This document shows positions 9,236 to 62,377 of a stretch of 64,000 nt of DNA, piece after piece. How positions within the stretch are numbered: the stretch's first letter is position 1; every line of letters begins with the position of its first letter. The position numbers and the translations under genes were made by a program. Source of the DNA: Chloranthus sessilifolius (taxonomy: Eukaryota > Streptophyta > Magnoliopsida > Chloranthales > Chloranthaceae). The stretch covers positions 92,106,765 to 92,170,764 of the forward strand of contig CM037588.1 in NCBI GenBank assembly GCA_021018995.1. The letters are read 5' to 3'. The notes under the pieces were generated by a model. The model searched no databases. It saw only the letters and a program-made list of their open reading frames with translations, and was not told the DNA's origin.

Positions 9236-11798
9236 TGTAACAGCCCGGATTTTCGAACCCGGAAGTGCCATCAGGACCGCCCATAAGGCGATCTCCGAAC
9301 GAACTTACGAACATTTGGTACATCCACACACAAAGAGGAAACAAAGCACATATTTTAACTAAGCAAATAGAGTCATCGTAAGGAATTAAATCTCCAATTT
9401 GATATAATGACAACGTTCGTATCATAACAAAAGATGGTTCTAATCCCATACAAATCATATGGACAAAAGAACCGAACGGAACCACTAGTGATGAATAACT
9501 ATCACCAAAACATGGTTCGCAAAATAATACAGTACTACATAATTACATAAGTTCTAACAAAAATTGGCTAGACGTACCAAGCCTTACAATCAAATCTCAA
9601 AATAAGTACAGCTCTGCCCACTAGAAAAACTCGTCAGGAGGGGGCTCAGTCTCCTCCTCTGGTATGTACTCAGGGTCCTCAGGATCTATGTCCTCAGTAC
9701 CCGCATCTACACTTGTACCTGTGACATATAGTCGAGGGGTGAACTAACATCTAAGTTCAATAGGAAAACATAACTAACATGCATATTTTCACATCACACA
9801 TATATCTCATGACATAATTCAAAACACGCTTTTCTTGCTTAGAATCACAATTTAAAAGTTTTTAAATTGACACGAAATGAATATCTTATGCATATTTCAA
9901 AACACACTTATCATGGTTGTTAAAACTTGTTCTTATAACACAGAAATTTAAATCAATTACTTAAATACAATCTCGAGCATATAGCATCGAGAGCCACACA
10001 TATACCGATGGGAACCCAAACCATCGTCGTTCAATGAACAATTTACACAATGCCCTAAGCCCCTTCGAACGAGGTGACTTGTGCCGAATGAAGTATTACC
10101 GCAGAATGATAATCAAAAAACGGATATCCCGCCGTACCGGAGCACATAGGTTCGTTCCGCATGAATTCTTAAATCAAAGTGCGAAATTTAACTTATAATT
10201 TATCACCGTGAATTGTGGTAGTTTATACTAGGTTTGAAGTTTTAATATTCAATGCTCACAAACACACATAGCTGATTCTTTCTGATGTCACATACACACA
10301 AAATTGATTTCACACACACAACAAACACATAATCTTTCGGAGTGCACATACACACACACACCTTTCACATTTAAAACCGTAAAAGAATTTCATGCTCATC
10401 ATTGACAAAATTCATATTTCACACACTTTCATCACATCACAAAATTCATGATAGTTGTAATCAAATGCACGTGTTACTGAATTTTCCCTACTTCAATGCA
10501 AAGCCAAAACGAATGCTTCTTATTCCGAGCTAGCTCTCCTAGCATATACTCACGCTCACACCTAAAACACGCAAATTTACTTCCCGTAAGTCATAAATGA
10601 CAAGAAACAGGAAGACTAAAAGTCCCACACAGTTCTCCTTCCGAAAAACTGAAAAAATTCTGAATATGTCCAAATCGATCGATTGATTCCCAAACCGATC
10701 GATTGTTTTCCAAAATCAATCAATCGAAATATATTTCGATCGGTCGGTTTCATCAGAAAACCAACACATTTCCCATGTTACAATCCGATCGATCAGTTCC
10801 CAAATCGATCGATCGGTTTCCAGATCGATCGATCGGTTTCCAGATCGATCGATCGGTTTCCAGATCGATCGATCGGTTTCCAGATCGATCGATCGGTTTC
10901 CAGATCGATCGATCGAATTCCATTTCGATCGATCGGTTCCTTCAGATAACCACACACTTCTGATGCCCTAATCCGATCGATCGGTTCGCAAATCAATCGA
11001 TCGAATTCCATTTCAATCGATCGGTTTCTTCACAAACCCCTCCAACATGCTCACTGTTTTCTCAAATCGATCGATTAGTGTTCAAACCAATCAATCGATT
11101 TCACAAATCGATCGATCGAATTTCATTTCAATCGATCGGTTTCTCCAAAAACTTTCATACTTTTACTTTGGCAAAATCGATCGATCGGATACTTATTTCG
11201 ATCGATCGGTTTTGTCAAATTTCTCACATACACGGGTTTCAACTTCCCAAACTTATTTTTCTTCAAATTTAACTTCTTTTCTTCTAATTTTTCACCCACA
11301 TCGTACATAAAGTCTACTATAACTAAAAATCATAATTTTACATAAGTTTCCTCACCTTTAATTGATCGATTCCTCGATCCACGAGCTCACGTCCAAGTGA
11401 GGGTTTCAGAGTTGAAATATTTGAGATTCTCTTCGAACCTCCATCCCTGAACTCCACGCACAGTTCCAATCTTGCACCCACACACTAATTTATGGTTCTC
11501 CTTTCTTTTTTCTCTTCTCAATAAATTTTCACCAATCAAAGCAAGAGAAATGAATTCTCTTATCCAATTGGCTTTTATACTTAAAAGCATAGTGTTAGCG
11601 TTTTAAGCTGATACTCCGTACTTCGGTGATTGTTACCTCATCAAATGGTTCTTACACTTCCTAAGTCTTTCTTTTTCACTCAAGATTCATTCCAACTCAT
11701 CAGATCACTTTAATATTTTAATATTCTCTGGTGCGTGACCAGTCGGGCACGCACACCAAGACTGATTGTTCAAAAGTTGAAATTTTCGGGACTTCACA
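9236..11798 (-). repeat. Gypsy-1 left LTR (3' LTR), 2563 bp
   Basis: Matches 19141-21585. It holds AC-rich stretches (10260-10370) and a cluster of CGATCGATCG-type palindromes at 10676-11212. It is about 118 bp longer than its partner, mainly because of a 20-bp tandem array at 10804-10916. A minus-strand TATA-like site (GTATAAAAGCC) lies near 11575 and another candidate near 10225. Confidence 0.9.
10676..11212. repeat. CCGATCGATCGG palindrome cluster (Gypsy-1 left LTR)
   Basis: More than a dozen 12-bp palindromes or near-palindromes of the type CCGATCGATCGG or TCGATCGATCGA. Most are separated by 8-base spacers of varying sequence (TTCCCAAA, ATTCCATT, TTCGCAAA), giving a 20-bp centre-to-centre period. 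Five tandem 20-bp units (ATCGATCGATCGGTTTCCAG) occupy 10804-10903. Reading frames across this tract (SIDRS-type peptides) are a by-product and not genes. Confidence 0.9.
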
Positions 11799-12163
11799 TT
11801 CTCCCCTCGGGAATTTTCATCCTCGAAAATGAACCTAAGGAACTCAGTCGCAAAACGCGACCCAAAAGCTTATGTCAACGAATCTATTCACACATAGTAA
11901 AGACAATATCCACACAGTTAACCACACACATTGCAGACATGTCCATACAAATCTAATCATACACATTGAAGACATCCACTCCCTGCATGAAAACGCATCT
12001 GCAATTGCATATAATCAAAATAAAACTCCCATTCATAGGCAAAAATGAACATTCCCATAAAAAAATTTTAAAATTTACAAACTATCCACATCTAAAATAT
12101 ATACCATCCAAAAGTGGTAACAATGCCATGATAGTTTAAAATTTTACATATCATTTTCCCGAA

Positions 12164-13530
12164 TTAATTACATATAATTCCAAAAATCAAAAAAACATAC
12201 TTTGAATATAAAAAATAATACTCCTGCAATCTCTGCTCAATCTGCCGTATCACCCTGTTGCTCATCCTCCTCGTCATGTGGCTGCTCAGCCTCATCGTCA
12301 TGTCCGCCAGTGCCAGAACCAGAAGCCTCAGGAATATAGGCACGTGCCGCTGCCGATAGTCTGATGGGTACATGAAGCACATAGTCTCAGCGATCAACGC
12401 CTCATGGTAGTCAAGGCGTCGGCTCAACTGACGATTGTTCTCAGCCATGAGGGCGAGAACGTCATCAATAGTAGCAGTAGATGCACACTGAGGTGGTGGG
12501 GGCACACGTATCGGAGCACGCCGCTGAGGTGGAGCTGCAGCTGCTGGCTGATCCTGAACTGGTACGTCATGTGTAGGCTGCTCTTGGTCTTGAGGAGCAT
12601 CGAGTGCAGCACCATGTATAGGTGGTACTTGTTCTTTGGTGCGGAGACTCTTCTTCAATTGATTATAAGTTTTGTTTCAAACCTTGAGAGAGTATAGCTT
12701 CACGTTATCAGTTAGTCTCAGCTCATCATTAGGAATAATATACTTCTCACCTCCCGAATAATCCTCAATCATACTGGATATGAGGTGAGCGTATGGAATC
12801 TCATCTACCGGTTTCGCTCCCCCTCCATCATCTTTCCTCTTGAATATTTCATCCCCTCAAATACAACCCTTGGGGCACTAAACCACTAGCTCATATATGC
12901 TGAAAATAAAGCCTGATGTACTTCCTCGACCCTCTTGGTCTTATGTCTCATAGGGTAAAGGTTGCATTTGAAAATGACTAGGCAAATCAACCCTCTTGAT
13001 TGCCATGCCCGAACCTTACCTGCCTTGGGTCATTCTTTCTATAACAATGTGAAAATTCATTGGCTCTTTGTTTTGCTCCCGCAAATCGATTTTGTTACCA
13101 TAATCGACGTAGCACTCGAGTGTGTTGCTAGCATGGTCATGAGTGAACTCATATACTCTTCCATCTATTTTGGTACAAACGGTGTTTGGTTTATCACCGA
13201 CGTACATATTTTGGTAAAACAGTTTTACCAAACGGGGATAATAATAGTCGTGAAGTGGGTTGAGCAAATTTTCTAACCCGACCTTTATAAGGTAATCACG
13301 GGCCTAATGGGTTATACCCTGTACACCACGCTCTTGAGAAAGCGTCGGATCAATGATATACTCCGTCTCAAAACCCTTTGCTGCCCACCACGCATTAGGA
13401 CATTCTCATGGTGGTGGTGGTGGTGGCTGTGAAGAGGGTGGTGGTTTGGGTGGTGGCTGCGAAAACCCGGTCGTGTGGTGGGTTGCTTCGACTTCGAAGG
13501 TTTCGAAGATTGCCTTGTCTTAGGTGACAT
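12164..13530 (-). mobile_element. Gypsy-1 extra ORF region (plant transposon protein-like), decayed
   Basis: Lies between the chromodomain end of pol and the 3' LTR, on the pol strand. It begins MSPKTRQSSKPSK (basic) at 13530 and contains RLVKLFYQNM and KIDGRVYEF, then a C-terminal part with NRQLSRRLDYHEALI. The same blocks, in the same order, occur in the Gypsy-2 extra ORF (RLVRLFYQYL, KVDGRVLRF, NRRMDFQDAML). The family resembles the plant domain annotated as putative plant transposon protein (Transposase_32); this is recalled, not searched. It is broken. Confidence 0.65.
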
Positions 13531-13770: not shown

Positions 13771-13780
13771 CTTATATATC
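13771..13780 (-). promoter_or_regulatory. TATA box for the Gypsy-1 extra ORF (inferred)
   Basis: The minus strand reads GATATATAAG about 240 bp upstream of the extra ORF start (13530) and directly downstream of the palindrome cluster 13788-14085. The order palindromes, TATA, ORF suggests an internal promoter separate from the LTR. Confidence 0.5.
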
Positions 13781-13787
13781 GCACAAA

Positions 13788-14085
13788 TCAATCAATCAAT
13801 TTTCAAAATCGATCGATCGATTTTCACTTAAACTAAGCCGGTTGAAAATTTCGTTTTCAATCGATCAGTTTCAATTTCGATCAATCGATTTTCATAAATT
13901 TTTGTCAGTTCATATTTTGCTCTCTGTTTTTGTGATTTCGATTGATCAGTGTGCATTTCAATCGATCGGTTTCAAAATCGATCGATTTGTTTTAATTTCG
14001 ATCGATCGGTTTTCACAGACAAAGCCTGTGTCTCATTTCTGTCAAATCGATCGATCGATTTAGGTTTCAATCGGTTGGTTTTGAC
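13788..14085. repeat. CGATCGATCG palindrome cluster (Gypsy-1 internal)
   Basis: About ten near-palindromes of the same class as in the Gypsy-1 LTRs. Between 13938 and 14010 four successive sites keep an exact 20-bp period with unrelated 8-base spacers (TGTGCATT, TTTCAAAA, TTTTAATT). The cluster sits between the end of pol and the TATA box of the extra ORF. Confidence 0.9.
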
Positions 14086-14216
14086 AGAAAACTTCAAAAT
14101 TTGAGTTTCTCTCCCAATTGATTGCAACTTCTCAACTTTTGAATATATTGTTCTTTATAGCTCCAACAAGCTACTATATACATATCAAATCATCAAGTTT
14201 GTAGCTTGATGAAATT

Positions 14217-19140: not shown

Positions 19141-21585
19141 TGTAACGGCTCGGATTTCCGAACCCGGAAACCATTGTCGTCAGGACCACCCATAAGGCGA
19201 TCCCCGAACGAACTTACGAACATTTGGTACATCTACACACAAAACGGAAACAAAGCACATAGTTTAACTAAGCAAATAGAGTCATCGTAAGGAATTAAAT
19301 ATCCAATTTGATATAATGACAACATTCGTATCATAACAAAAGACAGTTCTAATCCCATACAAATCACATGGACAAACGAACCGAACCGAACCACCAGTGA
19401 TGAATAACTGTCACCAAAACATGGTTCGCAAAATAATACAGTACTACATAATTACATAAGTTCTAACAAAAATTGGCTAGACGTACCAAGCCTTACAATC
19501 AAATCTCAAAATAAGTACAGCTCTGCCCACTAGAAAAACTCATCAGGAGGGGGCTCAGTCTCCTCCTCTGGTATGTACTCAGGGTCCTCAGGATCTATGT
19601 CCTCAGTACCCGCATCTACACCTGTACCTGTGACGTATAGTCGAGGGGTGAACTAACATCTAAGTTCAATAGGGAAACATAACTAACATGCATATTTTCA
19701 CGTCACACATATATCTCATGACATAATTCAAAACACGCTTTTCTTGCTTAGAATCACAATTTAAAAGTTTTTAAATTGACACGAAATGAATATCTTATGC
19801 ATATTTCAAAACACACTTATCATGGTTGTTAAAACTTGTTCTTGTAACACAGAAACTTAAATCAATTACTTAAATACAATCTCGAGCATATATAGCATCG
19901 AGAGCCACACATATACCGATGGGAACCCAAACCATCGTCGTTCAATGAACAATTTACACAATGCCCTAAGCCCCTTCGAACGAGGTGACTTGTGCCGAAT
20001 GAAGTATTACCGCAGAATGATAATCAAAGAACGGATATCCCGCCGTACCGGAGCACATAGGTTCGTTCCGCATTAATTCTTAAATCAAAGTGCGAAATTT
20101 AACTTATAGTTTATCACTGTGAATTGTGGTAGTTTATACTAGGTTTGAAGTTTTAATATTCAACGCTCACAAACACACATAGCTGATTCTTTCTGATGTC
20201 ACATACACACAAAATTGATTTCACACACACAACACATAATCTTTCGGAGTGCACATACACACACACACCTTTCACATTTAAAACCGTAAAAGAATTTCAT
20301 GCTCATCATTGACAAAATTCATATTTCACACACACTTTCATCACATCACAAAATTCATGATAGTTGTAATCAAATGCACGTGTTACTGAATTTTCCCTAC
20401 TTCAATGCAAAGCCAAAACGAATGCTTCTTATTCCGAGCTAGCTCTCCTAGCATATACTCACGCTCACACCTAAAACACGCAAATTTACTTCCCGTAAGA
20501 CATAAATGACAAGAAACAGGAAGACTAAAAGTCCCACACAGTTCTCCTTCCGAAAAACTGAAAAAATTCTGAATATGTCCAAATCGACCGATCGATTCCC
20601 AAACTGATCGATCGGTTTCCAAAATCGATCGATCGAAATATATTTCGATCGGTCGGTTTCATAAAAAAACCAACACATTTCCCATGTCACAATCCGATCG
20701 ATCGGTTTCTAGATTGATTGATCGAATTCCATTTCAATCGATCGGTTCCTTCAGATAACCACACACTTCTGATGCCCTAATCCGATTGATCGGTTCCCAA
20801 ATCGATCCATCGAATTTCAAATCGATCGATCAAATTCCATTTCGATCGATCGATTTCTTCAGAAACCCTCCAACATGCTCACTATTTTCTTAAATCGGTC
20901 GATAGTGTTCAAACCGATCGATCGGTTTCTCCAGAAATTTTCATACTTTTGCTCTGGCAAAATCGATCGATCGGATACTTGTTTCGATCGATCGGTTTTG
21001 TCAGATTTCTCACATACACGGGTTTCAACTTCCTAAACTTATTTTTCTTCATATTTGACTTCTTTTCTTCTAATTTTTTACCCATATCGTACATAGAGTC
21101 TACTATAACTAAAAATCACAATTTCACATAAGTTTCCTCACCTTTAATTGATCGATTCCTCGATCCACGAGCTCACGTCCAAGTGAGGGTTTCAGAGTTG
21201 AAATTTTTGGGTTTCTATTCGAACCTCCATCCCCGAACTCCACGCACAGCTCCAATCTTGCACCCACACACACTAATTTATGGTTCTCCTTTCTTTTCTC
21301 TCTTCTTAATAAATTTTCACCAACCAAAGCAAGAGAAATGAATTCACTTATCCAATTGGCTTTTATACTTAAAAGCGTAGTGTTAGGGTGTTAAGCCGAT
21401 ACAGTGTACTTCGGTGTATGTTACCTCATCAAATGGTTCTTACACTTCCTAATTATTTCTTATCACTTAAGATTCATTCAAACTCATCAGATCACTTTAA
21501 TATTTTTATATTCTCTGGTGCGTGACTGGTCGAGCCCGCTCACCGAGACGGATTGTTCAAAAGTCGAAATTTTTGGGACTTCACA
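19141..21585 (-). repeat. Gypsy-1 right LTR (5' LTR), 2445 bp
   Basis: Begins TGTAACGGCTCGG and ends GGGACTTCACA, followed by AAGTC. The Met-type primer site lies just left of 19141. It contains the shorter version of the palindrome cluster (20583-20998). Confidence 0.9.
20583..20998. repeat. CCGATCGATCGG palindrome cluster (Gypsy-1 right LTR)
   Basis: Counterpart of 10676-11212 with the same flanking words (TATATTTCGATCGGTCGG, CTTCAGATAACCACACACTT). The five-unit 20-bp array of the left LTR is represented here by one site near 20693-20728. Confidence 0.9.
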
Positions 21586-21927: not shown

Positions 21928-21984
<57 letters not shown>

Positions 21985-22077: not shown

Positions 22078-22082
22078 GGTAT

Positions 22083-22863: not shown

Positions 22864-23097
22864 CTGCCCTCCTTTATGAGGCTTGTACTCCTTTTTCTTT
22901 TTTTTTTTTTTTTTGGTTGGAGGGGGGGTTGTCCTCGGCCCTTGTGTGGCTGATTTAAAAAGAAACAAGTGCTTGATTCAATGTTCTTCTTGGGAATGGT
23001 TAAAAAAAATGAGGTACAACAGATCAAGGGGCACAATGAGAAGCTAGAAGCTAAGCCGAGAAAAGAAGCAAAAGCAAAAAAAAAAAAAAAAAAAAAT
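22864..23097. other. Flank with poly-T and poly-A runs
   Basis: No gene. A T run near 22893-22912 and an A run at 23076-23096. The last five bases (AAAAT) repeat at 31912-31916 and are taken as the target duplication of Gypsy-2, tentatively because the sequence is simple. Confidence 0.4.
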
Positions 23098-25379
23098 TGT
23101 ATGAAAAAGTCAATGCAATGGCTAAACAATAGAGTGGGAAACCTATAGACACTAAATCTGCTCCCATTCGTGCAAGATCTTAGTGGCTGACCAGGCGCAC
23201 AGGAAGAGGCTGACAAGAACCATGAGCAGAGTCCTCAATAACAGTATCAACAACGACTGTGAAAATCTGACTCAAATATCCTCTGGTACGAAATCAAAAT
23301 CTTTGAGTTCGGGGTCCTGAACAACTTCGGTACTTGTGACACATGGTGTCGGGGTGAGCTAAAAATTCCACGAGCTCAGTAGGACAATCACAATATAAAT
23401 TTCATCTTATTCACTCAAAACATAGTTTTCAATGATCAATTCGATTTTAGTCTCTCAGAATTCGAAAATCAGGAAGTCTTATTATCATATTCAAGATTTA
23501 GTTCCATACTATTGTCTAGTCAATTTACCTCATGTTTCATATGGATGTAGAGTTAACGAGAGTTCCATTCCATGTTAAATGCAACTTATTATTTTCATGC
23601 ATGACTTAAATCATAACTTAAAAGTCTCTAACACAAATATAGCGCTCGAGCCAGTGGCAGCCGATGGGAATCCTACCTATCGTCGTTCAAGAATAGTTTT
23701 TCAGTATGCCCAAGCTCCTGCATTGTGAGGAATACTTGGGCGGTTCAGAGGCCGTCGTTACGGTTCAATAGGTGCGGAAGCACAGTTCAGCATGTGCCGA
23801 AGCACGGTTCAATATGTGTTGAAGCACGGTTCAGTAGGTGTCGTTGCACATGATTCATTCAGATCAACTCTTCAAATCACATGCAAGTTCTGAAACATAG
23901 TACTGTGTTCATCCTTCATAGCTAATTCAGAATTCAAATTCAAATCTCCATTTTTCAATGAGAGTAATGTTCGGTGAGTTTCAGATGTTCAATGGATTGA
24001 ACTTGTTCAATACTTGTTCAATATTCGATGGGTTTCAATGCTCAATGAGAGTTCCATGCATTTCTATGTCCAATGAGAGTTCAATATTCTATTTGTTCCA
24101 TATGTTCGATGTATGTTCAATAATTTTTAAATTCCCAAATCATAGTACAACAACCAATGTTTTCAACGTTCTAATTCTAGCAATAATGGGGCCATTTTCT
24201 AACTTGATAATCACTAAATGATTATGAATTGAAGGATAACATGTAGGAGTACATTGTAATTCCCCTACCTCGGGTTCTAGCGTCGCAAGAAGGAAATGAG
24301 ATGATCCTTATTGATGGCGACCGATTCCCTTTTCTATATCAGACACACAAGTGATTCATCAAATATCAATTAAAATTTCAAATGATTCTAAGTACTTAAT
24401 ATTACCTCAAGAAATAGGGTTACAACACACAAGTCTGACCTAACTCGCTTGAGCAACAAGTGGTGTTCGCTCGAGCGACTTACTCTAGAACGAATTCCGC
24501 GCACCTCTTAGCATCTCGCTTAAGCGACAACCAAAACTCGCTCGAGCGAATTTTGGCCGTAAGTTTGACCCTATTTTTGAAGTGTCCTAGCTCGAGCGAA
24601 AAGTGAACTCGCTCGAGCAATCCTAGGCGAGTACGAAAATAAACCCTTTTCTAGTCCAAAATCGAAGTCCTGAATTAGATATAAAAATCCGACAATTATT
24701 AACTAAAATCTGGAATTTAAAAGTAGAGTCCGTAATAAGGAACGATGATATCTACCTTTTTGAGGAGTAGGGTGGATCTACGATAATCGATGTTTGAGGA
24801 GATTAGTATTCAAACTCTTGTCCATCCGATGTTCCTATCTTCTCCCTCCTTGATCTAAATGGCGGAAGGGATCAAGTGCTCCTTGTGGGAGAATGCTCAT
24901 AAAGTTTTAAGGTAGGTTGAAGAGATCGGTTGAGGAAGGAGAGTGGTGACGCTAGGGCTTCCTAAAAGAAAAAGAGAAGGTTTTCTTACGGTTCTTTTCT
25001 TAAAGAGAATTCTCGAAGAGATTATGATTAGGTTTCTCCGTAGTACACCTTTCTATCACCTAACGGAGATGATCCAGTGTTAGGTTGACACGCCAAAGAA
25101 GGGTGTATAGGTGTCTTACTTCTAGGTCCAAAATAAAAGTTTTATATTCACATACCAAGGTTTGATCCATAGACCTCATCTATAACTCAAGCCTTCAACC
25201 AGTAGGCTATCTCATAACTTGTGTTAACTAATGACGAAAATAAATATAAAACCTTGAAAACCAAACGTGTATTCTTTAGTTAACACGTTTTTGAAAGATT
25301 AAGGCGTTCGACGTATACGTTATTAACCCCAAATACGGGATCTAGGTATATTACTGATACGGAAATCTTGGTCGTTACA
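23098..25379 (-). repeat. Gypsy-2 left LTR (3' LTR)
   Basis: The right edge is clear (GTCGTTACA followed by TTCTCCCCTC, the reverse of a purine tract). The left edge at 23098 rests on TG plus the AAAAT repeat. It shares short words with the Gypsy-1 LTR (CCGATGGGAA, CGTCGTTCAA, TGACACATGGTGTCGGGGTGA). The piece from 24870 to 25379 matches 31402-31911. Confidence 0.65.
24434..24628. repeat. TCGCTCGAGCGA palindrome cluster (Gypsy-2 LTR)
   Basis: Six sites of the class TCGCTCGAGCGA, including the symmetrical variant TCGCTTAAGCGA at 24516-24527. A pair TCGCTTAAGCGA / TCGCTCGAGCGA is spaced 22 bp around CAACCAAAAC. The stretch GGCCGTAAGTTTGACC then TATTTTTGAAG between sites is also present in the family C LTR at 41155-41345. 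Confidence 0.9.
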
Positions 25380-27160: not shown

Positions 27161-27167
27161 TGCCAGG

Positions 27168-27418: not shown

Positions 27419-27429
27419 AGAAAGTTTTC

Positions 27430-42970: not shown

Positions 42971-45900
42971 TTTTTTTTTTTCAATAGTTACTAAAGAAGA
43001 AGGGATATGTTTGTATTTGTATTTATCAAAATAGATTTATGTGTACATTTTATTTTCTTTTGTGATGTGTTTGCAAGGGTAAGTTCGTTATTTAGAGAGA
43101 GAAGCGAATGACCTAGTTAGAGTTAGAGTTAGAATCCTTACTAACCTTTTTATTACCTAAAGACAAGAATACCTTTATAAATATTACTCCTAACATGTCG
43201 TAGTTATACACACACATGTATATCCCAATACTCCTCAAGCTAGTGCATAGATATCAATCATTCCTAGCTTGACCATAATATCTTGAAGTAGGGAAGAGCC
43301 AACTGCCTTATTGAGAATATCTCTAACTACCTAGAAGATAAAACTTTGGGTGTATCTATGATTCAAGCTTTTCATGGAGGAAGTGCACATCAACCTCAAT
43401 ATGCTTGGTTCTTTCATGAAGCACCGAGTCAGATGTAATGCCAATGACAATCTGATTGTCACAGTGAAGAGGCATAAAAAAAGGAGGAAATCCCAATTCA
43501 GTGGGAAGTGATCTAAGCCATAGAAGTTCATGTCCCATGGGCCATAGATCTATGCTCGGATTCAACACTAGATTGAAATGCTACATCTTGGTTTTTACTT
43601 CTCCACACTACAAGATTACCTCTAAGGAAAGCACAGTATCCTGTGGTGAATTTATGAACTGAGCAACAATAAATGGAGCAAATGTAAGGTCTGCCCGAGT
43701 ATTGGTAAAATATATATGACGCCGAACAAGACGCATATACTTAGGTGGATCTGAAGGAGGCTCTCCAATATCAGTGTGAAGAAGATGTTTAGGATCCATG
43801 GGAGACTTGGAAGATCTACATCCAAGCATACTAGTGTCCGGCAACAAATCAAGACATATTTCCTTTGTGGGAAGGAAATCCCTTGAGGTGAATGAGCAAT
43901 ATACCAAGATAGAATATGAGGTGACCAAGTCTATTACATTGAATGCTAGACTTAATCCCGCCATTGCACGAGCTTTAAAGGCATTGTTATAATATCATCT
44001 ACATACGACAATAAGATAGTCCTTAGGCCTCCTGATTCAATATGAATAAAGCATGCGTGCTTTGAGTGGCATTGGGTGAAATCCATAGTAAAAACAATAA
44101 CATTAAACCTGTGGAACCAAGCTGTAGGAGACTGCTTTAGCCCGTAAATTGATTTGCGAAGGCGACAAACCTTCCTAGAATACTTCCCTAAAGACGAAAG
44201 CCAGGTGGGGCTCCATATAGACCCCCTCACTTAAATGCCCATGAAGGAGTTAATTTTTGTAAGTTAGGGTCTATAAATGTTATAATTTGACAGAGAAGGA
44301 GAAGAGAAGAAGAAGAGAAGAGATGGATGGATAATTAGGGTGTGCGTTAGATTCCCTCACACCCTTTGTTATTATTTATATTTTACTTACAAAAGGATCC
44401 TGATGGGGATGCCGACACCAAGGACTTAGGTTTTGGGCCATACAAGGTGTACCCACGGAAGAAGAAGCAACGGAGGAGCCATGGAGTGCCATCATCTACC
44501 GAGGAAAGGCCTTGAAGAGCACCAAAGAGGAGGGTCACTGCCTAGGTTCACTCGAGCGGACATCATTCTCTCTCGAGCGAGAATGCTTCAAAAACACGGG
44601 AAAACTCTCGGCCTATTGTCACTCGAGCGAGGGAGCATAAAAAATCAAGGCCAAAACTTTCGATCAAAGCTCGCTCGAGCGATCCCTGGTTGTCGCTCGA
44701 GTGACCCCTTGTAAAGATTCCCACTCGAGCAGGAACCAAATTTGCTTGAGCGAGTCGAGTGACAGGAGTTTTCCTTTTTTATCCTTATTTCTATTTTCTT
44801 TTTGTGTCCAATGTAAGTTAGCTTTTAGGGTAACATAGTACTTTTCTATTTTAGGGTATTCCCATTTGTAATTACTATAAAGGATATCTTGTACACCATT
44901 TTTGGAAATTGGTTGATTTTAATGAAAAGTACATTGCATTTTGGGCTTGAGAGGAGCTTTGAAGAGTGAGTCTTCTTCCCCATGTGGGTTTGGTGTGAGG
45001 CCAAGGGTGAGATGCTCATGTTATCTTTGATCTTCTCTTTACTTCTTGTTCTTGTCTAATTTTCTCATTTTTTCCCCAATCTCTTGCATCCAATTTTCCC
45101 CATTTTAATTGATTGTTCAAATTCCCAAACCCTAGATCTAGAACAACCTTGATGCCCATCCTTGTGGATCGAATCCGATTTTAGCCCGTCGATCAATGAC
45201 CGTTGTTGGGCTTGAACTTGTTCGTTTTGTGCCGTTAATCGCTTCAATTCAAAAGCCCTAGCGAGGAGCTACCGATTCCACCACGAACTACGATCGAATG
45301 CTCCGACCTAGACGAAGCTAGAGTTCTGTCGCTAGGATCGCCTCTTCTGCATATCCTAACGGATCTCGCACGTCGGATTGGACCCTACGTGAATCAAGCA
45401 TGGTCACCTAAGCTTTAATTTTTAATTAATTGTTCAATTAATTAGTTGAACTTTGATAAATTTGCATATCGTGGGATTCACAAAATTTAGGGTTGTTATC
45501 CCGCATCAGTTTTGGTATTAGAGGTTCTAGGTTAGGGCATATTTGCATGTCATTTCAATTTTATTGCATTTTATTTCATTTATGTTCATTAGTGTACACG
45601 TCTATTGTTTGACAAAAGTCCTTACTCATTTTGGATCACATGTGTATGTCATTTCGATGTCGTTTGATTTTATTACATTTGTGTGTTCATTTGTATGCAC
45701 TTCTTGTGTTTGTTAAAATTACTCATTGTGTAGTCACATTTGTGTGAACATCTTGTGTTTGTTAAAATTACTCACGTGATGTGTAGTTCACATTTGTGTG
45801 TTCACCTTGTGTTTGTTAAACTTACTCAATTACTTTTGGTTCATAGTTACTTGTTCATCGTAGCTTCCTTGTTTAGTGTGTTATGATCACTATGGGTACG

Positions 45901-48900
45901 AGTGAGATTGCTGATGTTCTTAGGAGCATCTTATAAACAAAAAATTTGCGTAGAATATAAATCTAACACAAATCAATCATAACAAATTTCCCCTCGCTAG
46001 GAGAGGGTTTTATTAAAATGGCGGACCTTACACTTCCGGGTATCGCAGTCGATTCCTCGTTAATTACATCAAAATTTAATACCTCTGATTAAAAGCTACT
46101 AAAAAATAATAACGTAATTACATCTCTGAAATAAACAAAACTAAGATTCTAATTCTAAGTTCTTCATCGACATCTTCAATCCGTCATGAGATAGATGGAT
46201 AGCAGACTATCTTCATCGGAGATTTGAGGAAAATGAAATAGGGGACGACGGATGGGAGAACCCCTCTAAAAGCCAGGTCCATTTGATCGAAAAGCACGAG
46301 TCATTACTGGAGCAAGAAACTCGTGGACGAGTCTTAAAACGAATTCTTGTTCTCTGGTCTCAAAGATGACTTCGAATACCAAATCTATTTTTCGAGCAAC
46401 TGATTGTCAGAAGAATTATCACTTTCAGTGATAGAGTGTCTAATCATGAGTTAGATATCATCAAATTTCTTAAAATTTGATGATCATAGATGATTTTATA
46501 ATGATTTTACCGTTGGATTTGATCAATATCTTAAGATTTGGTCAATGCATAGTAAATCCACCATTGGATCTCGTTACGATCTCACATTATGATCATTTGA
46601 CTAAAAGTCAATGAATCCACCATTGGATTTGATCAAAATCACAAGATCTGATCAATATGTAATAAATCTACCGTTGGATCTCATTACGATCTCACATTAT
46701 GATCGTTCGACTAAAAGTCAATGATTCCACCGTTGGATTTGACCATAATCACAAGATCTGATCAATATGTAATAAATCCACCGTTGGATCTCATTACGAT
46801 CTCACATTATGATCGTTTGACTAAAAGTCAATGATTCTACCATTGGATTTGACCATAATCACAAGATCTGGTTAATATACAATAAATCTACCGTTGGATC
46901 TTATTATGATCTCACATTATGATCATTTGACTAAAAGTCAATGAATCCACCATTGGATTTGATCAAAATCACAATATCTGATCAATATGTAATAAATCCA
47001 CCGTTGGATCTCATTACGATCTCACATTATGATCGTTCGACTAAAAGTCAATGATTCCACCGTTGAATTTGACCATAATCACAAGATCTGATCAATATGT
47101 AATAAATCCACCGTTGGATCTCATTACGATCTCACATTATGATCGTTTGACTAAAAGTCAATGATTCTACCATTGGATTTGATCATAATCACAAGATCTG
47201 GTCAATGTACAATAAATCTACCGTTGGATCTTATTATGATCTCTCATTATGATCGTTTGACTAAAAGTCAATAATTCCATCGTTGGATTTGACCAAATTC
47301 ATAAGATCTAGTCAAAATGCAATAAATCCACCGTTGGATCTCATTATGATCTCACATTATGATCGTTTGACTAAAAGTCAACGAGTCCACTGTGAAAGAA
47401 TTTCCGATCTCGAGGTTAAGGTCCAAACCCTCATTTGAGGGAGTGATGATCCGAACCGCGAGGGAAACTCTAATTATCATAGGTGAATATTTTGGGTATT
47501 ATAGTCCGAAATCATTCTTCGGGTTCGTGATTGCAACCCGTATGAGCATTGAATTTGTGGTTGCAATCCGAGTGTACTAGGAGTTATGCCCAGGGTCGTA
47601 CCCACGTGGCTTAACTATTTCTAAGTACGCAATAGATTGGGCACGAGTCATAACGCGTAATCCCAAATTGTAACCATAAATCCCACTTAGGAGGAGCCGT
47701 AGCTCTTTTCCTAAGCGTATCTCCTTTAGGTAAGGGTCGTAGCCCTTATCCTAAAAGTCTTAATCTTAACTTACTCCTCCCGTCCACTTTAAAAGAAAAT
47801 AAAAAAGAAGAAGAAAAGAATAGTCAGAATCTCGGAGATCACCTTAAAGTCTTTTTAGAAGAGTCGGAGATATTTTCGGCAGAGCTTTCGTCTTAGAATT
47901 TTCGGATCCCTTGCAATGAGGACGGGTCTGCTATTTATAGATTTGTGGTAGCGGTTATAGAAGTTATGATCTTACGGTTCCGTAAGGTTTTTTCATGAAA
48001 TGAACGGTTGAGAGAGCTGCGTAAGTTTTCGTCTTCACGTGGATTGAGAAGATTCTTCTCACGTATGTCATTCTTTTCTCATAACCGCCTAGGTGACTAC
48101 GTATATTTTCTAGCCACCTAGGTGGATAAGTATTTTTCTATCCACCTAAGGTGGATAAGTATTTTTTCTAGCCACCTAGGTGGATAAATATTTTTATATC
48201 CACCTAGGGTGGATAAGTATTTTTCTAGTCACCTAGGTGACTACGTATATTTTCTAGCCACCTAGGTGAATAAGTATTTTTCTATCCACCTAAGGTGGAT
48301 AAGTATTTTTTCTAGCCACCTAGGGGACTACGTATATTTTCTAGCCACCTAGGTGGATAAATATTTTTCTATCCACCTAGGGTGGATAAGTATTTTTCTA
48401 GTCACCTAGGTGACTACGTATATTTTCTAGCCACCTAGGTGGATGAGTATATTTTCTATCCACCTAGGGTGAATGAGTATATTTCTATCCACCTAGGGTG
48501 GATAAGTATATTTCTCTATCTACCTAGGATGGATAAGTATATTTCTATCCACTTAGGGTGGATAAGTATTTTTTCTATCGACCTAGGGTGGATAAGTATA
48601 TTTCTCTATTCACCTAGGGTGGATTAGTATATTTCTATCCACCTAAGGTGGATAAGTATTTTTTTTATCCACCTAGGGTGGATAAGTATATTTCTATCCA
48701 CCTAGGGTGGATAAGTATTTTTTTCTATCCACCTAGGGTGGATAAGTATATTTCTATCCACCTAGGTGGATAAGTATATTTCTATCCATCTAGGGTGGAT
48801 AAGTATTTTTCTAGCTACCTAGGTGACTACGCATATTTTCTAGCCACCTAGGTGGATAAGTATTTTTCTATCCACATAGGGTGGATGAGTATATTTCTAT

Positions 48901-51809
48901 CAACCTAGGGTGGATAAGTATTTTTTCTATCCACCTAGGGTGGATAAGTATATTTCTAGCCACCTAGGTGACTATGTATATTTTCTAGCCACCTAGGTGG
49001 ATAAGTATTTTTCTATCCACCTAGGGTGGATAAGTATATTTCTATCCCCCTAAGGTGGAAAGTATATTTCTTCTCTGATACCATTTTTACCGAAAAAAAT
49101 AAGAGAGGTAAAACCTCTTCTTGTGAGATTGCTAAGAGATTTCCTAGAGAAATCTCTCTCGATTTGGGTTTGTTTTGGTTGCTAAATGCATGCACAGAGC
49201 TTATTACAATTTATTTTTAATATAATAAAATTAGTAATTAAAAGAAAATTTCGGCAATTACAATCAAGGCCCCTGCACATAATTTTATTAGTTTTTCTTT
49301 TTAAACCCCCCTAGGGATGAGTGAACCCTAGGGGAAATGGTTCCACATGGCATTTGGTTGCCACCTGGCAGCCCAAAAGGGCACCGTCGTAGGGGTCAAT
49401 CCCTACGACTATATTGTAGGAACCCTCTTTCCTATATATGTATAATTTCATGAGGTCTGCTAAAGGGAACAAGCACATTTACCTAAATCCAATCATTCTC
49501 TCCCTCACTCTCTCCCTCTTGTGGCTTATGCTCTCTTATTACTTACTCCTATATTTTTTATGTTATTTGAGCCATCATTCATATAGAAGTTTGATCATCC
49601 ATAGTACTACTCTTATGAGTATGAGCAATTGTCTTTTCTTTTACTTGCTGATAGAGATAATAATGAGTTCAGTCATTTGTGAGTTGGTATTAATAACAAT
49701 GTTATATTTTTCTCATCTTCCACAATTTTAGCAAGAGAACTTTTGCTTGCAGGGCTTTGGGAATGCCAAAGACCTGCTTTCAGTTCAGGAGATTGTGGTA
49801 GAAATGAAGTCTTTGCCTCATCTATTTATCGATCGAATTGCTTATACAACTATAGTTGACGCACTGCTAAATTGTGGCTCCACTAGAGGTATGCTAATTT
49901 TCTATGCTATATATCTCTCTTATCATCTTTGATGTCCTTGTCAAAAATTTTGTACTTGAATGATCCTACAATGGCTCCACTGGACCCAGCATATATCCTA
50001 TGATATGATATGTGCTAGTGTTTGTGTTACACTCCTATGTCGGTCCCAGTCCGAATGAAAAGGAGTAGGGTAAGTGTCAGATAGACATTTGGCTGTAAAA
50101 ACCCTTGATTTGGCATGTTATCCTTGGTATTTAATAAATGCACATGAGCATATCTGGAATGATCACCAATAAATGCAATAAATATATACCTATTAAAAAT
50201 TGTAATAAATATATTTTTCCCTCTTTGGTTGTTATGTTATTCTTATCACATTTATCACTATGGGTTAGTTCAATATACTTGATTTCCTTTCTATATGAAG
50301 ATATAGTTATTAGAGATTTTAGTCTAGTACAAATACTACACTTATCACAATTCACATCATCCTGGTAGGAATTAAATCTAAGTTGTCATACATCTCAGAA
50401 ATTAGCATGACCTAATCTATCATGTTGTGGATAAGAAGACTCAACTGAGTACAAAGGAGAGCTTTGCATTCATTTAAACATCCCTGAAAGTCATAGGCTT
50501 TTCCAACAAATACATTGTTCTAGGAGAGTATAAGCTTGTCTAATTCAAACACTAATTTAAAGTCATGCTTCACTCGTAAGGTGATCGATACAAAATTTTC
50601 TTCAATATCGGGCACGTGAAGAACATTAAGTGCGATGGTCTAGAAGGAGTTGAAGTAATGGAGATGGGTTTAGGTCTTTAGATTTTGGTTAGGGTTTGAG
50701 TAAAGTAGTTGAGGTTGTGGTTATGAGAGGTAGATTAGGATTAGAGAAGAGAGATTATAGTGAATGGCGTAATGAGCAATTAGTTCTCATGAGTCTTTAT
50801 ATTAAGAGACTTAATATTTGCACACTAAATAATAGTTAACACACACCAGCGCAGATAGCTTAAGTACACTCATAAAATTATCACTCCCCCTCAAGCTGAA
50901 GCATGTATATCATGCATGCCCAACTTGACCATAATATCCTGTAGAACCTTGTGGCCCAAAGGCTTAGTGAAGACATCTATGAGTTGTTGGGAAGAAGCAA
51001 CATCAATAAGTTTCAAGGAGTGATCCCACACTTTTTCTCTTACAAAATGAATATTCATCTCTATGTGTTTCATCCGCTCATGTAACTGACGCGGGACAAA
51101 CCCTAAACTATGTGGATGAAAATGAAATGCCATTTGCCGAAATTAAATTAAATTATTTAAGCAATAAATCACACAAACGATCGCAATACCTTAGGTTCCA
51201 TGATTTTTCGTTGGGATGATCGCGTTTGGTTCGGGTAGAGTCGAATCTGTGTGCTAGATCCCTTAGAACTCTAGCCGCTTCCAGATTAGGGCGTCGCTCT
51301 TCAATCAAGATGGGATTGCTGGTTTTCTCAGAGTGTTTTGATGCGGAATGGTTTAATAGCTCAAGTGAGATCTAGGGTTATTGAATCGGGTCGATTCAAC
51401 GGTTTAGATGAAAGCTAGGGTTTATAATTTTTGGGGTATTTGAAAGTTTAATGGCTGAATTTAGGGTTTATGGGAACAAAAATAAAGCAGAGAAAGATAA
51501 ATCAAAAGAGATAGAAGACAATAGATTGTGGGCTTCATAACTTTGGCTTCACACCAAACCCTTCTCAGGAAGAAGATTCACTCTTCGTAGTTGCTCTTCT
51601 CAAAGAGAAAGTATAAGCTCTTTTCATTCGTAAAAAATAAATTTCATTGTTTTTTTTAATGACCTTATATAGGAGGTCTCTAAAACAAAATAAAACCCTA
51701 AAACAAATAATAAAAAAGGACACGTATGCCACTCAAAATGATTTCCATATTTTGGCGGAGCTCTCTTTCGTGAAAATTCGATTGATTGATCCTAAGGTCG
51801 ATCGATCGA

Positions 51810-51860
<51 letters not shown>

Positions 51861-54800
51861 CATGTGTGAGTCTCGGGTCACTAATCAATTGATTGACAAT
51901 AGTACTTGATCGATTGACAATGGTACTCGATCGATCAACAATGCTACTCGATTGATCGATTTTATTTATATATATGAAACAAAATGTCGCCGAAATTTAA
52001 ATCTCGTTGCCCGCAGTTGATCGATCGAAGCCTAGGATCGATCTATCGATTGTGCATTCCTTCGTGTCTTCCTTTATGCTCGGTTCTGGTTGCTTTTACG
52101 CCCGGTTTGGTTTTCGTCCCGTTTCTTCCGCCGTCGGTGCACTCGATATGGTCCATAGCATATGTCCTCGATGTCGGCATCCCGGTCAACTCTCCAGGAC
52201 CGAAAACGCTTCATCATCGATGAAGCAGAGTCGTGATATCGATAGAGCATGTCGGGGTCTAGGCTACGCACCTCATCTTCATTTATCCACGCGTTCTGGT
52301 TTGCCAAATATTTTTGAAATCCTTCACCATGGGTGGACACTACGACATCATCCGATATCCCTTCGATTACATCTTTCCACTGCCTGCTTGGGGAAGGAAG
52401 GGGTAGGGGCTGCAAGGGTGGGGTGGGTGTGTGGATTAGGGTTGTTTAGAAAGGGTTGCAAAGAGGTAGGGTTGAGCTCAGAGAAGGGACTAGGTCCTCT
52501 ACCTTGAACGTTGAGTTGATCCCTGTAACCAGAGGAAGATAAAAAACGTATGCATTAGGACCACTCCTTGCCAAAATTCTAAAACGCCCAGCGCCGCGGG
52601 CTTGGAGGTTTTTGGCGACTCTCGATGGGGAATCATTTCGGCCTAATCCGAACCATGACATGATCACCAATTTGGAATTCCTTGAAATGCTTCTGTGCAT
52701 CCGCCGATACATTGTATTGTTCGTTGCTTGAATTAATTTTTTGTTTAATTTCGGCATGCAAACTGTGTATATGTTGTGCAAATGCATCTGCGGACTTGGA
52801 CACTCGATGTGATGCAGACATGGGTATTAAATCAAGCAGTGTTCTAGGCCGATTACCATGTACAACCTCAAACGGACTCATGCCTATGGATCTATTGATA
52901 TAATTATTGTACGCGAACTTGGCTATTGACAATGTAGATTCCCAAGTCCTAATATGATCACCAACAAGACAACGAAGGAGATTACCTAAGCTTCTATTGG
53001 TGACTTCCGTTTGGCCATCAGTTTGAGGGTGATAGGCCAATGAGAACTATAGTATGGTACCCATCATGTGCCACAAGGTTTTTCAAAAATAACTAGTGAA
53101 CTTTGCATCCCTATCTGACACGATGGTTTTAGGTTACCCATGGAGACACACAACCTTCTCGAAAAATAACTTTGCGATATGAGTCGCATTGGAGGCTTTA
53201 GACCAGGGTATGAAGTGGGCCATCTTAGAAAAGCAGTCCACTACCACAAAAATGGAATCGTGCTTTCGCTAAGTCTTGGGGAGTCCGATCACGAAGTTCA
53301 TGGAGATGTCTTATCACGGGGTATGGCACGGGAAATGGGGTGTACAAACCAGTATTTTGTCTACTTTGTTTAGCCACTTAACAGGTACGACATTGTTTCA
53401 CAACCCGAGAGACATCTCTCATATGGCTAGGCCAGTAAAACCTATCCTTAACGACCACAATGGTTTTGTTGCACCCGAAATGTTCGACAATCTCTCTAAC
53501 ATGTAACTCCCAAATGAGGAAGTCACGCAATGAAGTGCGAGGGATGCAGAAGCGATTGCCTTTGAACAAATACCCGTCTTGCAAGGTATACTTGGAGTTA
53601 GTGTTGGTCGGATTATCAAGGAGAGCAACATATTCCACTCTAAAATCTAGGCATTCCGGATAATCTTATTTCAACTGCTCAAATCCAACGACCTCGGTGT
53701 TCATAGTGTGCAAAGTCGCTACCGGAAGACTAAGCGCATCAGCTGCTTTGTTCTCAACACTGGCCTTATGCTTCAACATGAATGCGAATCCTTGATGGTA
53801 TTCGACCCATATCGCATGCCTTGGGTTCAACTTCTTTTGGGAAGCAAAGAAGCGTAAGGCTTCATGATCAGAAAACAACACAAATTCTTGCGGGCTAAGG
53901 TAATATTTCCAATACCAAAGAGATCTGATGACCGCATAAAATTCCTTATTGTAGGTGGAGTATTTTTGCTTTGTCTCGTTAAGCTTTTCACTAAAGTAGG
54001 TCACAAGGTGGTCCTCTTGGCTAAGCACTCCACCTATACCTACACCTGATGCATCACATGCTACTTCGAAAACTTTAGAAAAGTCTAGTAGACGCATGAC
54101 GGGTGCACTAGTCATCTTATCCTTATTCTTGACAAAGGCTTTCGTCGCGGCTTTGCTCCAATGGAACTCTCCTTTTTTCATGCAATCAGTGATGGAAGTC
54201 AAAATGGTGCTAAAATTTTGAATGAAGCGATGATAGAATGTAGCTAAACCAGACTTTGTCTTATGTGCAATCTGGTTGGAAAGAAATGATGCTGTTTTGT
54301 AGGATGTGGAAGCCTATCACCTTTGTAATTAGGAGTGCTAGGTATTGGGTTTTGAGTAGGGTTATGCTATACAGAGATTCTATGGGTGAGTGCGGATGAG
54401 GGGAGAGTTGGTTGATGCTTGGGATGATTTATTCTTGGTGTGAAGGTGCTGCTTTTGGCCCTGTGGGTTTCATGGTCTGCTAGGGTGTATCCCTAAGGGG
54501 CTGGGTTTTTTGTTTTCTTTTTGGGCTTAGGTGTTTGCTTTTTGTTCTAGTTTTTGTTTTTTTGGTTTTATCTTTTCCGGCCTGTGTTTTAGTTTCTCGC
54601 TACCTATTTGTACTTTCTTCCGTTTTTGCTGTTTTCAACATATTGCCAATAACCGATCCAAAGAAAAAAAGAAGCATCAGCAAATTTCGGTGTTAACTTG
54701 AGAAGTGGAAGTCCTTGGAATAAATCAGGAAGTAAAAGAACTCAACATCTGTATAACTTAGTGTTAATGAATTTGGAATAGAATCTTAGTTTTAATATAT

Positions 54801-60450: not shown

Positions 60451-61464
60451 TGTTGCCAAGCTACAGGGGCTTTGTCGTGGGCTATTAAGGATGGCGGTTG
60501 GGGGCCGTGATAGTTTGCCACGAGCGCCAAGGTTGGAGCCAACAGGGGGCGTTGTGGTGGCGTTGATGGTTGGGATGATGGCTTCGACTTGGATTGAGAT
60601 GGGGCATTGTAGTGGACGTGTGTTGAGCCGTAAGGGCCATATAACCTTCACAAGGTGGCTTGCATCAAAACTATGTCAAACGAGCAGGTTTTAGGTTCTC
60701 TCGCTACTTTTCCAGATTTGGTATTTTTTCCTTATATATCGTAGGGAAGCCCGGCACCTACGATTTGGTTGTACATGGCCAATGTCTAGCCCGAGTGACC
60801 CCAAAGTGGGGTGTGTGCGGGAATAACTTCTTTGGAGGATGTTACTAGTATCTCCTTATCTCTTTGGCGTGGGTCAAGGATGGTGCCGAAGGCAGCATTA
60901 CCCGTGTGGCTAAGGTAGAGGCTCCTGTTGGGACCGCCGTGCGGAAGCATGTGTCAACTTGGGTCAAGCATACATCTCAGGTGGGACACTATAACGTACT
61001 AGCCATAGTCAAGGGAACAAGCTAAATGTGTAAGTGAGCGAAAATCAAACAAGGTTGAGTTTGATTGCGTTAGTTTAGGCTGACGTAGCATTTTTTTTGC
61101 TAGCTGCCACATGTGGTGCGTGGTTCAAAGAGTGACCCATGACAGTTGGTATCAAAGCACGGTTACCAACGCTATGTGGGCTTGACAACTAACAAGGGAG
61201 CATCTATAATGGCTAAAGATGTGCCGATGGCTGTGACAACTTCTACACGCTCGAGATGCAACTGCCGGGGAAACCAAACAAGGCGACACGTGAGAGATGA
61301 GGAGTTGGAAACACATGTGGACCAAATCTCTAGCATGAGGCGACGTTTGGGTTAGAGGTGAAAGGTAATCGTGTTGGTCAATTGCGAGACTGCGAGAACA
61401 AAGTGGCTGCATACCACAAAGATGTTGAACAATTGTTTACTGAAGTGTGAGATACTAAGAGCAC
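60451..61464 (+). mobile_element. Gypsy D, 5' LTR and start of the internal region
   Basis: LTR 60451-61142 starts TGTTGCCAAGC and ends CCATGACA, followed at once by TTGGTATCAAAGCACGGTT, a Met-tRNA primer site. A gag-like start follows (DEELETHVDQISSMRRRLG). It is cut at 61465 by C3; the rest would lie beyond the window. Confidence 0.65.
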
Positions 61465-62377
61465 TGACGCGGGACGGGAACCCTAAAATGTGGAATATGA
61501 TTTTTTTATGCAATTTGGCCAAAATTAAATAAAATAATTCAAGTTTAATTGCAAAATTATCTTAAGATACCTTAGGGTTGCAGAATTTTGATGAATAGAT
61601 CACACGAGATCCAGGTAGGGTCCAGTCCGATGCGCAAGTACTTTTAGAGTCGAGGCGAGATCGGCCTAGAGATAGTACTCTAGTTTTTCCAGGATTAGGC
61701 GCTCGTCTTCGGTCCGATGTAGATTCACGGATTCCAAATTGGATTGTAAAAGGGAATTAGGGTTTGTAAAAGGTTTATGGCTTTTAGATCGATTTATGGT
61801 TTTGGAAAGGGTGTTAGCTTTTGTGGATTAGGGTTTCTGAAATCTAGGGTTTCAGAATCAAAGGAAGAATTTAGGTTATGATTTAGAGAAGCACGCAGAA
61901 ATTTAGATAGCAAATATGATAGAGAAAATAACAATGGCTTTTGGGAATCACTCCCTTGGCCTCACACCAAACCCATCTCAGGCGAAGAATATTCAAGCAT
62001 GAAAGCATTCAAAATATTCAATCAACTAATTAAAAAGTCTTTACAAGCCTCAATATATAGGCCACCAATAATTAAAATTCTAAATAAAGAGTTCTAATAG
62101 AAATAAAATACAAAAAAGGCAAGTTTTCGCCAAAAAAACTCAAAATCCGGAAAGCCCGTCATGACGTCCACGGACGTTCGTAGTGCCCCACGGACGTCCA
62201 TGACCTACGGGCAGATAGGGGGCAAAATCACGGACGTCCGTCATTGTTTCACGGACGTCCGTCACTATTCACGGACGCCCGTCACTGTTCATGTGAACAG
62301 TAACTTTTTTTTTTTTCTGAAGTTGAAATTCTGTTGCGGTTCAACTTCAATACTTTCGATCTTGGCGTTCCTCGTCA
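61465..62377 (-). repeat. C3 3' LTR
   Basis: Starts TGACGCGGGACGGGAACCC, ends GGCGTTCCTCGTCA. Minus-strand TATA (CTATATATTG) at 62051-62060. Confidence 0.85.
62160..62290. repeat. ACGGACGTCCGT palindrome cluster (C3 LTR)
   Basis: Five or six sites of ACGGACGTCCGT or one-step variants. The spacers are 8-9 bases (AGTGCCCC, CATTGTTTC, CACTATTC), giving a 20-21-bp period. It lies about 100-240 bp upstream of the TATA box. Confidence 0.9.

Follow-up and report, generated by a model that had tools for sequence, protein, structure and literature searches.

Why do several neighbouring retrotransposons in a plant genome carry clusters of short palindromes in their long terminal repeats (LTRs)? The question arose from a 64-kb stretch of the Chloranthus sessilifolius genome (2.17 Gb, searched as a whole below), positions 92106765-92170764 of contig CM037588.1, hereafter called the window. 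A first-pass annotation of this window had described clusters of perfect 12-bp palindromes in several unrelated LTR families and had proposed that they share a promoter layout in which a dimeric DNA-binding protein, or a chromatin or silencing factor, reads the palindrome. It is probable, at about 0.62, that these arrays are promoter or enhancer modules of LTR retrotransposons, composed of rows of dyad-symmetric sites to which a dimer would bind. This reading draws on the frame of the sites, their spacing, their place before TATA boxes and before an additional open reading frame (aORF), their recurrence in genome samples, and the agreement between arrays of the same element.

The window contains two Ty3/gypsy elements, Gypsy-1 and Gypsy-2, both on the minus strand, and elements of a family C (C0 to C4). 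The CpG-containing palindromes follow one frame, CGNNCGNNCG, i.e. CG-NN-CG-N'N'-CG, in which the dinucleotide NN is exchangeable: it is AT in Gypsy-1 and C2, CT in Gypsy-2, C1 and C4, and GA in C3. The arrays in the LTRs are the following (basis of each in brackets, where applicable).

10660..11220, minus strand: Gypsy-1 3' LTR array, type AT (TCGATCGATCGA / CCGATCGATCGG), pitch mostly 20 bp (shuffles, spacings)
20570..21000, minus strand: Gypsy-1 5' LTR array, type AT (shuffles, spacings)
24440..24630, minus strand: Gypsy-2 LTR array, type CT (TCGCTCGAGCGA) (shuffles, LTR homology)
41145..41345, minus strand: C1 LTR array, type CT, with a single perfect palindrome (spacers share homology with those of the Gypsy-2 LTR array)
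44535..44760, plus strand: C4 LTR array, type CT, with a single perfect palindrome; TATA at 44876
51770..52055, minus strand: C2 LTR array, type AT; TATA at 51671
62160..62290, minus strand: C3 LTR array, type GA (ACGGACGTCCGT); TATA at 62059

Perfect 12-bp palindromes with at least one G or C numbered 55 in the window, against 16.2 in 200 dinucleotide-preserving shuffles (standard deviation 4.0, maximum 28), and are thus far above chance. When the array segments, which had been picked after inspection of the sequence, were shuffled one by one, 0 of 1000 shuffles reached the arrays at 10660-11220, 20570-21000, 24440-24630 and 27160-27420 or a repeat at 48085-49075 (see below), and 1 of 1000 matched the array at 13780-14095. 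The C3 array was reached by 5 of 1000 shuffles and the C2 array, which is marginal, by 41; the single perfect TCGCTCGAGCGA of C1 and of C4 was equalled by 99 and 65, respectively. The other sites of these family C arrays are imperfect palindromes.

The frame CGNNCGNNCG occurs 37 times in the 64 kb, always within arrays, and 31 of these occurrences are palindromic, compared with 1.4 and 0.11 in 300 shuffles. Within the window, the NN positions were conserved at 0.93-1.00 for types AT and CT and at 0.80-1.00 among the five C3 sites; the genome sets gave 0.86-1.00, and there position 12 was conserved too. The CpG positions change mostly from C to T and from G to A, as would be expected of methylated, decaying copies.

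Outside any LTR, the two Gypsy elements bear further arrays that the first-pass annotation had not connected with a gene. In both elements an aORF follows the integrase on the same strand, 3' of pol, and the arrays at 13780-14100 and 27160-27420 precede it.

12167..13530, minus strand: Gypsy-1 aORF, broken; the piece 13019-13303 weakly matches PF20167
13772..13778, minus strand: TATA box TATATAA, 9 bp 3' of the last site of the Gypsy-1 aORF array
13780..14100, minus strand: Gypsy-1 array upstream of the aORF, type AT (1/1000 shuffles)
26136..26942, minus strand: Gypsy-2 aORF, 268 residues, open, with no Pfam match of its own
27152..27158, minus strand: TATA-like box TTAAATA, 10 bp 3' of the last site of the Gypsy-2 aORF array
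27160..27420, minus strand: Gypsy-2 array upstream of the aORF, type CT (shuffles, spacings)

The Gypsy-2 aORF, which is followed by a further open frame at 25871-26146, shares 36% identity with the Gypsy-1 piece across 94 residues. The match of that piece to PF20167, "putative plant transposon protein", has an E value of 4e-4 and 20.8 bits; three aORF members scored 20.8, 19.6 and 15.5 bits, all under the 45-bit gathering cut-off.

The LTR array and the aORF array were of the same type in all eight elements in which both were seen, i.e. Gypsy-1, Gypsy-2 and the genome loci L008, L010, L013, L027, L037 (two sites only) and L079. A random deal of types would match 8/8 in 24 of 40320 deals, a result made less striking by the relatives among the eight. 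L027, L037 and L079 came from a set of six further elements that were probed 1.95-3.05 kb past the aORF start. In L008, L010 and L013 the LTR position was deduced from gene order and not from LTR pairing.

The spacing of the sites is regular. Adjacent spacings of 20-22 bp made up 86 of 186 for type CT (mode 22) and 102 of 184 for type AT (mode 20), with uniform expectations of 5.7 and 5.6, and additional peaks were found at 42-43 and 49-51 bp in the genome sets. The C1 and C4 arrays have matching spacings of 21-22 and 48-52 bp. Successive C3 sites are 20, 40, 21 and 20 bp apart, and among 50 genome places listed for the C3 word ACGGACGTCCGT, nine neighbours were separated by 20-23 bp.

The distance to the TATA box is also often the same before the aORF. 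Of the 20 AT promoters, 19 had a TATA word no more than 100 bp past the last site (2.7 expected from mononucleotide shuffles), 17 of them at exactly 9 bp; of the 34 CT promoters, 16 did (2.1 expected), 13 of them at 9 bp, and several more CT loci have, by eye, TTTAAATA-like words at the TATA place. The gap was 9 bp in L008 and 8 bp in L013, both with sites of a TA-centred type. In the C2, C3 and C4 LTRs the TATA box lies within 400 bp downstream of the array, in keeping with the earlier statement that family C arrays lie 100-400 bp upstream of a TATA box; the C1 array is truncated at 41122. Element C0 (36785-41122), which has no palindrome cluster, adjoins the C1 array at this point and appears to be inserted into C1.

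Recurrence was examined in two genome samples. The Gypsy-2 aORF search gave at least 147 matches, of which 40 that started near residue 1 and were spread over identity were fetched, and the Gypsy-1 piece gave 150 matches, of which 20 were fetched; the commonest 10-bp palindrome (at least 4 G/C, within 1 mismatch) was then sought in the 800 bp upstream of the aORF. An upstream array was present at 35 of 40 Gypsy-2-like loci (four with 2 sites only) and at 20 of 20 Gypsy-1-like loci. Among the former, CGCTCGAGCG was listed first in 27, tied in 4 and second in 2, and 29 loci had at least three sites within 1 mismatch of it; L060 carried type CC (TCGCCCGGGCGA) and L063 type AT (CGATCGATCG). Control maxima for this sample were 1-3 in shuffles and 1-2 in parts of the ORF. 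All 20 Gypsy-1-like loci had at least four AT sites (shuffled maximum 1), with ATCGATCGAT or CGATCGATCG first in 19 and TTCGATCGAA first at equal count in L086. A second array, TTGATGCATCAA, with mostly 34-bp steps, was noticed in L044 between about -748 and -505 relative to the start of the aORF, upstream of its CT sites.

Twenty blocks of 10 kb taken at round-number positions (200 kb) served as an unselected sample. Thirteen arrays with at least four sites per 400 bp were found, spread over five of the blocks; shuffling each block once gave 0. Three of the array-bearing blocks hold relatives of the aORF (L008, L010 and L013). The LTR position and the stretch upstream of the aORF both carry CGATTAATCG in L008 and L013, and both carry CGACCGGTCG in L010; the centre of the frame can thus also be TA. 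L010 has another, unassigned array, CAATCGATTG, at 3118-3267. Across the 20 blocks, CGNNCGNNCG was found 17 times (5 palindromic; 3.0 and 0.23 shuffled) and CGNNTANNCG 52 times (40 palindromic; 8.5 and 0.80 shuffled), the palindromes of the latter coming nearly all from two blocks. Dense palindromic repeats of CGATACGTATCG type, in another frame, were seen around a C-like element at 3910-4090 and 6580-6840 of L012; the CG frame is thus common, not universal.

Could the arrays be ordinary minisatellites, in which slippage multiplied a chance palindrome that ancestry or recombination then spread? The sequences between the sites, compared after masking of the palindromes, bear on this. Homology links the arrays of the Gypsy-2 LTR, C1 and C4 (z 9.9, 6.3 and 4.4), over nearly the whole array for Gypsy-2 and C1, and these therefore do not count as independent cases; transfer of a U3 module between lineages seems to have taken place. 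The Gypsy-1 3' LTR array contains a 20-bp tandem repeat at 10786-10938 (7.7 copies, 93%), and the AT spacers of the genome set have an identity of 0.48-0.58, above the 0.33 of shuffles, so that slippage explains part of the AT arrays. LTR and aORF spacers, compared in seven of the eight agreeing elements (all but L079), were weakly similar in four (L008 z 2.0, L010 2.8, L013 3.6, Gypsy-1 3.6 and 4.4). What such a process does not account for is the near-random identity of neighbouring spacers in the CT, C2 and C3 arrays (0.25-0.42 vs 0.21-0.27) between sites that are alike, nor the recurrence of frame and pitch with other NN, and twice per element, where the LTR and aORF spacers have no clear homology (Gypsy-2 z 0.3, L027 0.9, L037 -0.4). 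Slippage as the whole explanation is regarded as very improbable. The two LTR arrays of Gypsy-1 differ in copy number and layout, the 7.7-copy repeat being present in the 3' LTR only; arrays therefore change fast, either after insertion or in reverse transcription.

Several results weigh against the promoter-module explanation or limit its reach. In the Gypsy LTRs, no short and constant distance separates the array from a TATA box: the first TATA-like word lies about 445 bp after the last array site in both Gypsy-1 LTRs and 803 bp beyond it in the Gypsy-2 LTR, TATATT also occurs within the Gypsy-1 LTR arrays, and a single Gypsy-2 site adjoins the distal TATATT. Of the 34 CT loci, 18 lacked a strict TATA word in the 100 bp that follow the last site, and in L010 no TATA box adjoins the last site of the aORF array. 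At four Gypsy-2-like loci (L050, L051, L057 and L065) there are 2 sites, a number that shuffles also reach, and at five (L046, L053, L055, L061 and L064) there is at most one. No second array was detected 1.95-3.05 kb after the aORF start in L048, L060 and L063, three of the six elements probed. Some arrays of the unselected blocks have other frames, the loci are related by descent and their counts are not independent, and the sites were chosen by similarity, which makes their identity partly a matter of construction. Finally, the two arms of the sites do not co-vary, neither within the window arrays (permutation p 0.30, 0.34 and 1) nor in the genome sets (p 0.19 and 0.84), and hence give no sign of compensating changes that keep the palindromy, the copies being mostly decayed. 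Co-variation as proof of selection for palindromy was accordingly rejected, symmetric variants such as TCACTCGAGTGA and TCGCTTAAGCGA being no commoner than independent changes would make them.

The same absence of co-variation counts against a function of the nucleic-acid structure itself, in which hairpins between neighbouring palindromes would feed small RNAs and host silencing, or the RNA or a cruciform would act. RNA folding of the two arrays tried was far stronger than that of shuffles (z -6.5 and -5.1), and in maize Sireviruses small RNAs concentrate on the palindrome clusters of the LTRs (Bousios 2016, as cited in PMC10760457). However, any array of palindromes folds well, and folding strength does not discriminate; nor does a structural role predict a common frame, a 20-22 bp pitch or a TATA box at 9 bp. 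This possibility appears distinctly improbable. Palindromes at insertion targets were also considered as an explanation and rejected, as PMC6911290 describes insertion sites that slightly favour palindromes of 5-6 bases, not promoter arrays.

If the arrays are promoter modules, a dimeric protein would bind rows of sites that face the same side of the helix, being 20-22 bp or about two helical turns apart. Most sites have the CGNN-CG-N'N'CG frame, TA-centred in some families, with NN setting the family. Elements that bear an aORF have the same site type at both the LTR promoter and the aORF promoter, and in the latter the last site often adjoins the TATA box. The bound protein would activate transcription or block silencing, possibly in a manner that depends on CpG methylation. 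The common promoter architecture put forward by the annotation fits the shared type at two promoters, the 20-22 bp pitch and the 9-bp TATA gap; its description of the families as unrelated was too strong, since the CpG types share one frame and the arrays of Gypsy-2, C1 and C4 are homologous.

The annotation knew of no named system of this kind, but two are comparable. Sireviruses, which belong to Ty1/copia, carry motifs called RM, family-specific palindromes of 10-20 bp in 8-32 copies, in the LTR upstream of the TATA box (Bousios 2010, PMC2829016). In the linker, 77 of 79 RM copies lie upstream of the ENV-like gene, and PMC2829016, which calls the RM Sirevirus-specific, reports none in a linker without that gene. 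The window arrays are likewise palindromic, family-specific, present in many copies, and located in the LTR before a TATA box and upstream of a 3' ORF. The Usier RM GTCGGACGTCCGAC includes the C3 core CGGACGTCCG, and the Vitis RM CGGTCGACCG has the CGNNCGNNCG frame (PMC2829016). In contrast, the CGG-CCG core is found only in C3 among the window types, AT, CT and CC being without it, and the hosts here are Ty3/gypsy elements and not the SIRE clade of Ty1/copia. The 20-22 bp pitch and the 9-bp TATA gap are additional observations made here.

In the second system, VANDAL, short family-specific motifs form dense, fast-evolving, non-coding tandem arrays that are read by an element-encoded protein, VANC, whose binding and demethylation have been demonstrated (Hosaka 2017, PMC5735166; Sasaki 2023, PMC10398659). 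As in the window, relatives use different tandem motifs. VANDAL elements, however, are Mutator-like DNA transposons, and their motif YAGTATTAY is non-palindromic with all copies in the same direction. The window arrays thus appear to represent the Sirevirus layout in another superfamily and may work like VANC/VANDAL, matching neither system in full.

Extra ORFs suspected of a nuclear or regulatory role are also known beside gag-pol in Grande (gene23, antisense, with its own promoter; PMC7264820), in Retand (TRP28, antisense, with tandem repeats nearby; PMC11963269) and in the sunflower Tekay (PMC11728184). They differ in being antisense in Grande and Retand and 5' in the sunflower Tekay, while the aORF here is sense and 3' of pol. 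The stem palindrom- is absent from the main text of PMC7264820 and PMC11728184 and occurs only in the reference list of PMC11963269. Among the literature matches listed, judged by titles and the beginnings of abstracts and with subscription papers largely outside the search, no paper on such palindrome arrays in Gypsy elements was found.

The putative reader may be a host factor or the aORF protein. A tentative case can be made for host transcription factors, e.g. bZIP or other dimers, with different families using different factors. The C elements, in which no aORF was seen, bear AT, CT and GA types in their LTRs. The GA word ACGGACGTCCGT, which has 9483 exact copies in the genome where its reversed form has 14, contains the core GACGTC, which is known from bZIP sites. 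Against this, several NN in one rigid frame resemble one diversifying family of binders, and the site type follows the aORF, though linkage alone could cause that.

The other candidate is the aORF protein itself, acting like VANC in VANDAL and exploited by elements without an aORF, which seems doubtful. It would agree with the location of arrays directly before the aORF and in the LTR, with types agreeing in 8/8, and with the restriction of Sirevirus linker copies to elements with an ENV-like ORF (PMC2829016). In the DNA tree of the aORF, the two AT rows form a single clade (100/98; as low in 9 of 500 shuffles), and the CT label requires 5 changes where shuffles gave 7.5 (as low in 3 of 500). 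The rows without a type are scattered, however, and the four labels taken jointly require 7 changes, with 22 of 200 shuffles giving no more; physical linkage would yield such a pattern anyway, so that the tree is no proof of co-evolution. The Pfam scan recognised no DNA-binding domain in the aORF, the only match in a PDB sequence search had an E value of 0.54, and the structure model is poor (mean pLDDT 40). In a public protein collection, the Gypsy-2 aORF had 0 relatives at E 0.001 among 383 candidates.

A stronger form of this proposal, which we consider unlikely, is a self-recognition code. The aORF product would be a dimer that binds DNA in a methylation-sensitive way and acts as an activator or against silencing, and NN would set the family that it reads in the LTR and in its own promoter. 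C1 and C4, with their homologous U3 array, and C2, with the same word, have no such ORF and would use the factors of others. The code would be VANC-like, would have arisen separately in LTR retrotransposons, and would perhaps be shared in principle with Sireviruses.

The classification of the hosts rests on domains and gene order. RVP_2, Retrotrans_gag, Ty3_capsid and the integrase H2C2 domain were recognised, with the integrase after the reverse transcriptase, as in Ty3/gypsy. The presence of gag-pol between LTRs marks an LTR retrotransposon and not a Mutator-like DNA transposon. The LTRs are as follows.

9236..11798, minus strand: Gypsy-1 3' LTR, pairing with 19141-21585 (blastn self-match 92-94%)
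19141..21585, minus strand: Gypsy-1 5' LTR, self-match partner of 9236-11798
22900..25379, minus strand: Gypsy-2 3' LTR, left end approximate, not located

The TG..CA ends of the Gypsy-1 pair, its polypurine tract and its primer-binding site were identified by eye. The 5' LTR of Gypsy-2 is largely missing; since 24875-25379 pairs with 31403-31911 in the self-match and 23130-23730 shares homology with the LTR of Gypsy-1 (z up to 23.6), the Gypsy-2 array sits inside an LTR. Both elements presumably resemble Tekay-type chromoviruses, a clade name assigned from sequence habit; the one Chromo match was weak, below the cut-off and in C0 only (E 0.0055). The C elements have LTR sequence in common, no additional ORF was seen in them between pol and LTR, and their pol apparently continues into the LTR, a likeness to what we take to be CRM elements.

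One cluster named in the annotation was set apart. It had counted 48085-49075 as a fourth palindrome family, and this repeat was rejected as part of the palindrome system because it has no CGNNCG frame, a 29-bp unit and no identified LTR; it is a separate minisatellite.

48085..49075, no strand assigned: CCACCTAGGTGG minisatellite, 29-bp unit, 34 units, arms CCACC/GGTGG with a 2- or 3-base centre

The centre is CCACC-TA-GGTGG in 14 units, CCACC-TAR-GGTGG in 18 and undecided in 2. Nearby are a TATAAATAG box at 47939 on the minus strand, 149 bp away, and a 330-bp (110-bp) tandem repeat of 2.7 (8.1) copies at 46500-47390. In a separate scan of viral contigs, two contigs with a CT pair were found (the stretch round each match was inspected) and none with an AT triple. 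One GC-rich contig, IMGVR_UViG_3300047497_000053 (L001), has two TCGCTCGAGCGA and one TCGCTTAAGCGA at about 3350-3400, in steps of about 16 bp.

For plant LTR retrotransposons, these results place a layout described as Sirevirus-specific in the other LTR superfamily, together with a grammar of frame, pitch and TATA distance. The homologous U3 arrays of Gypsy-2, C1 and C4 suggest that promoter modules are exchanged between lineages. The arrays also lead to a prediction about the extra ORFs of plant retrotransposons, which have long lacked an explanation: these ORFs, or one family of host factors, would read a family-specific word.

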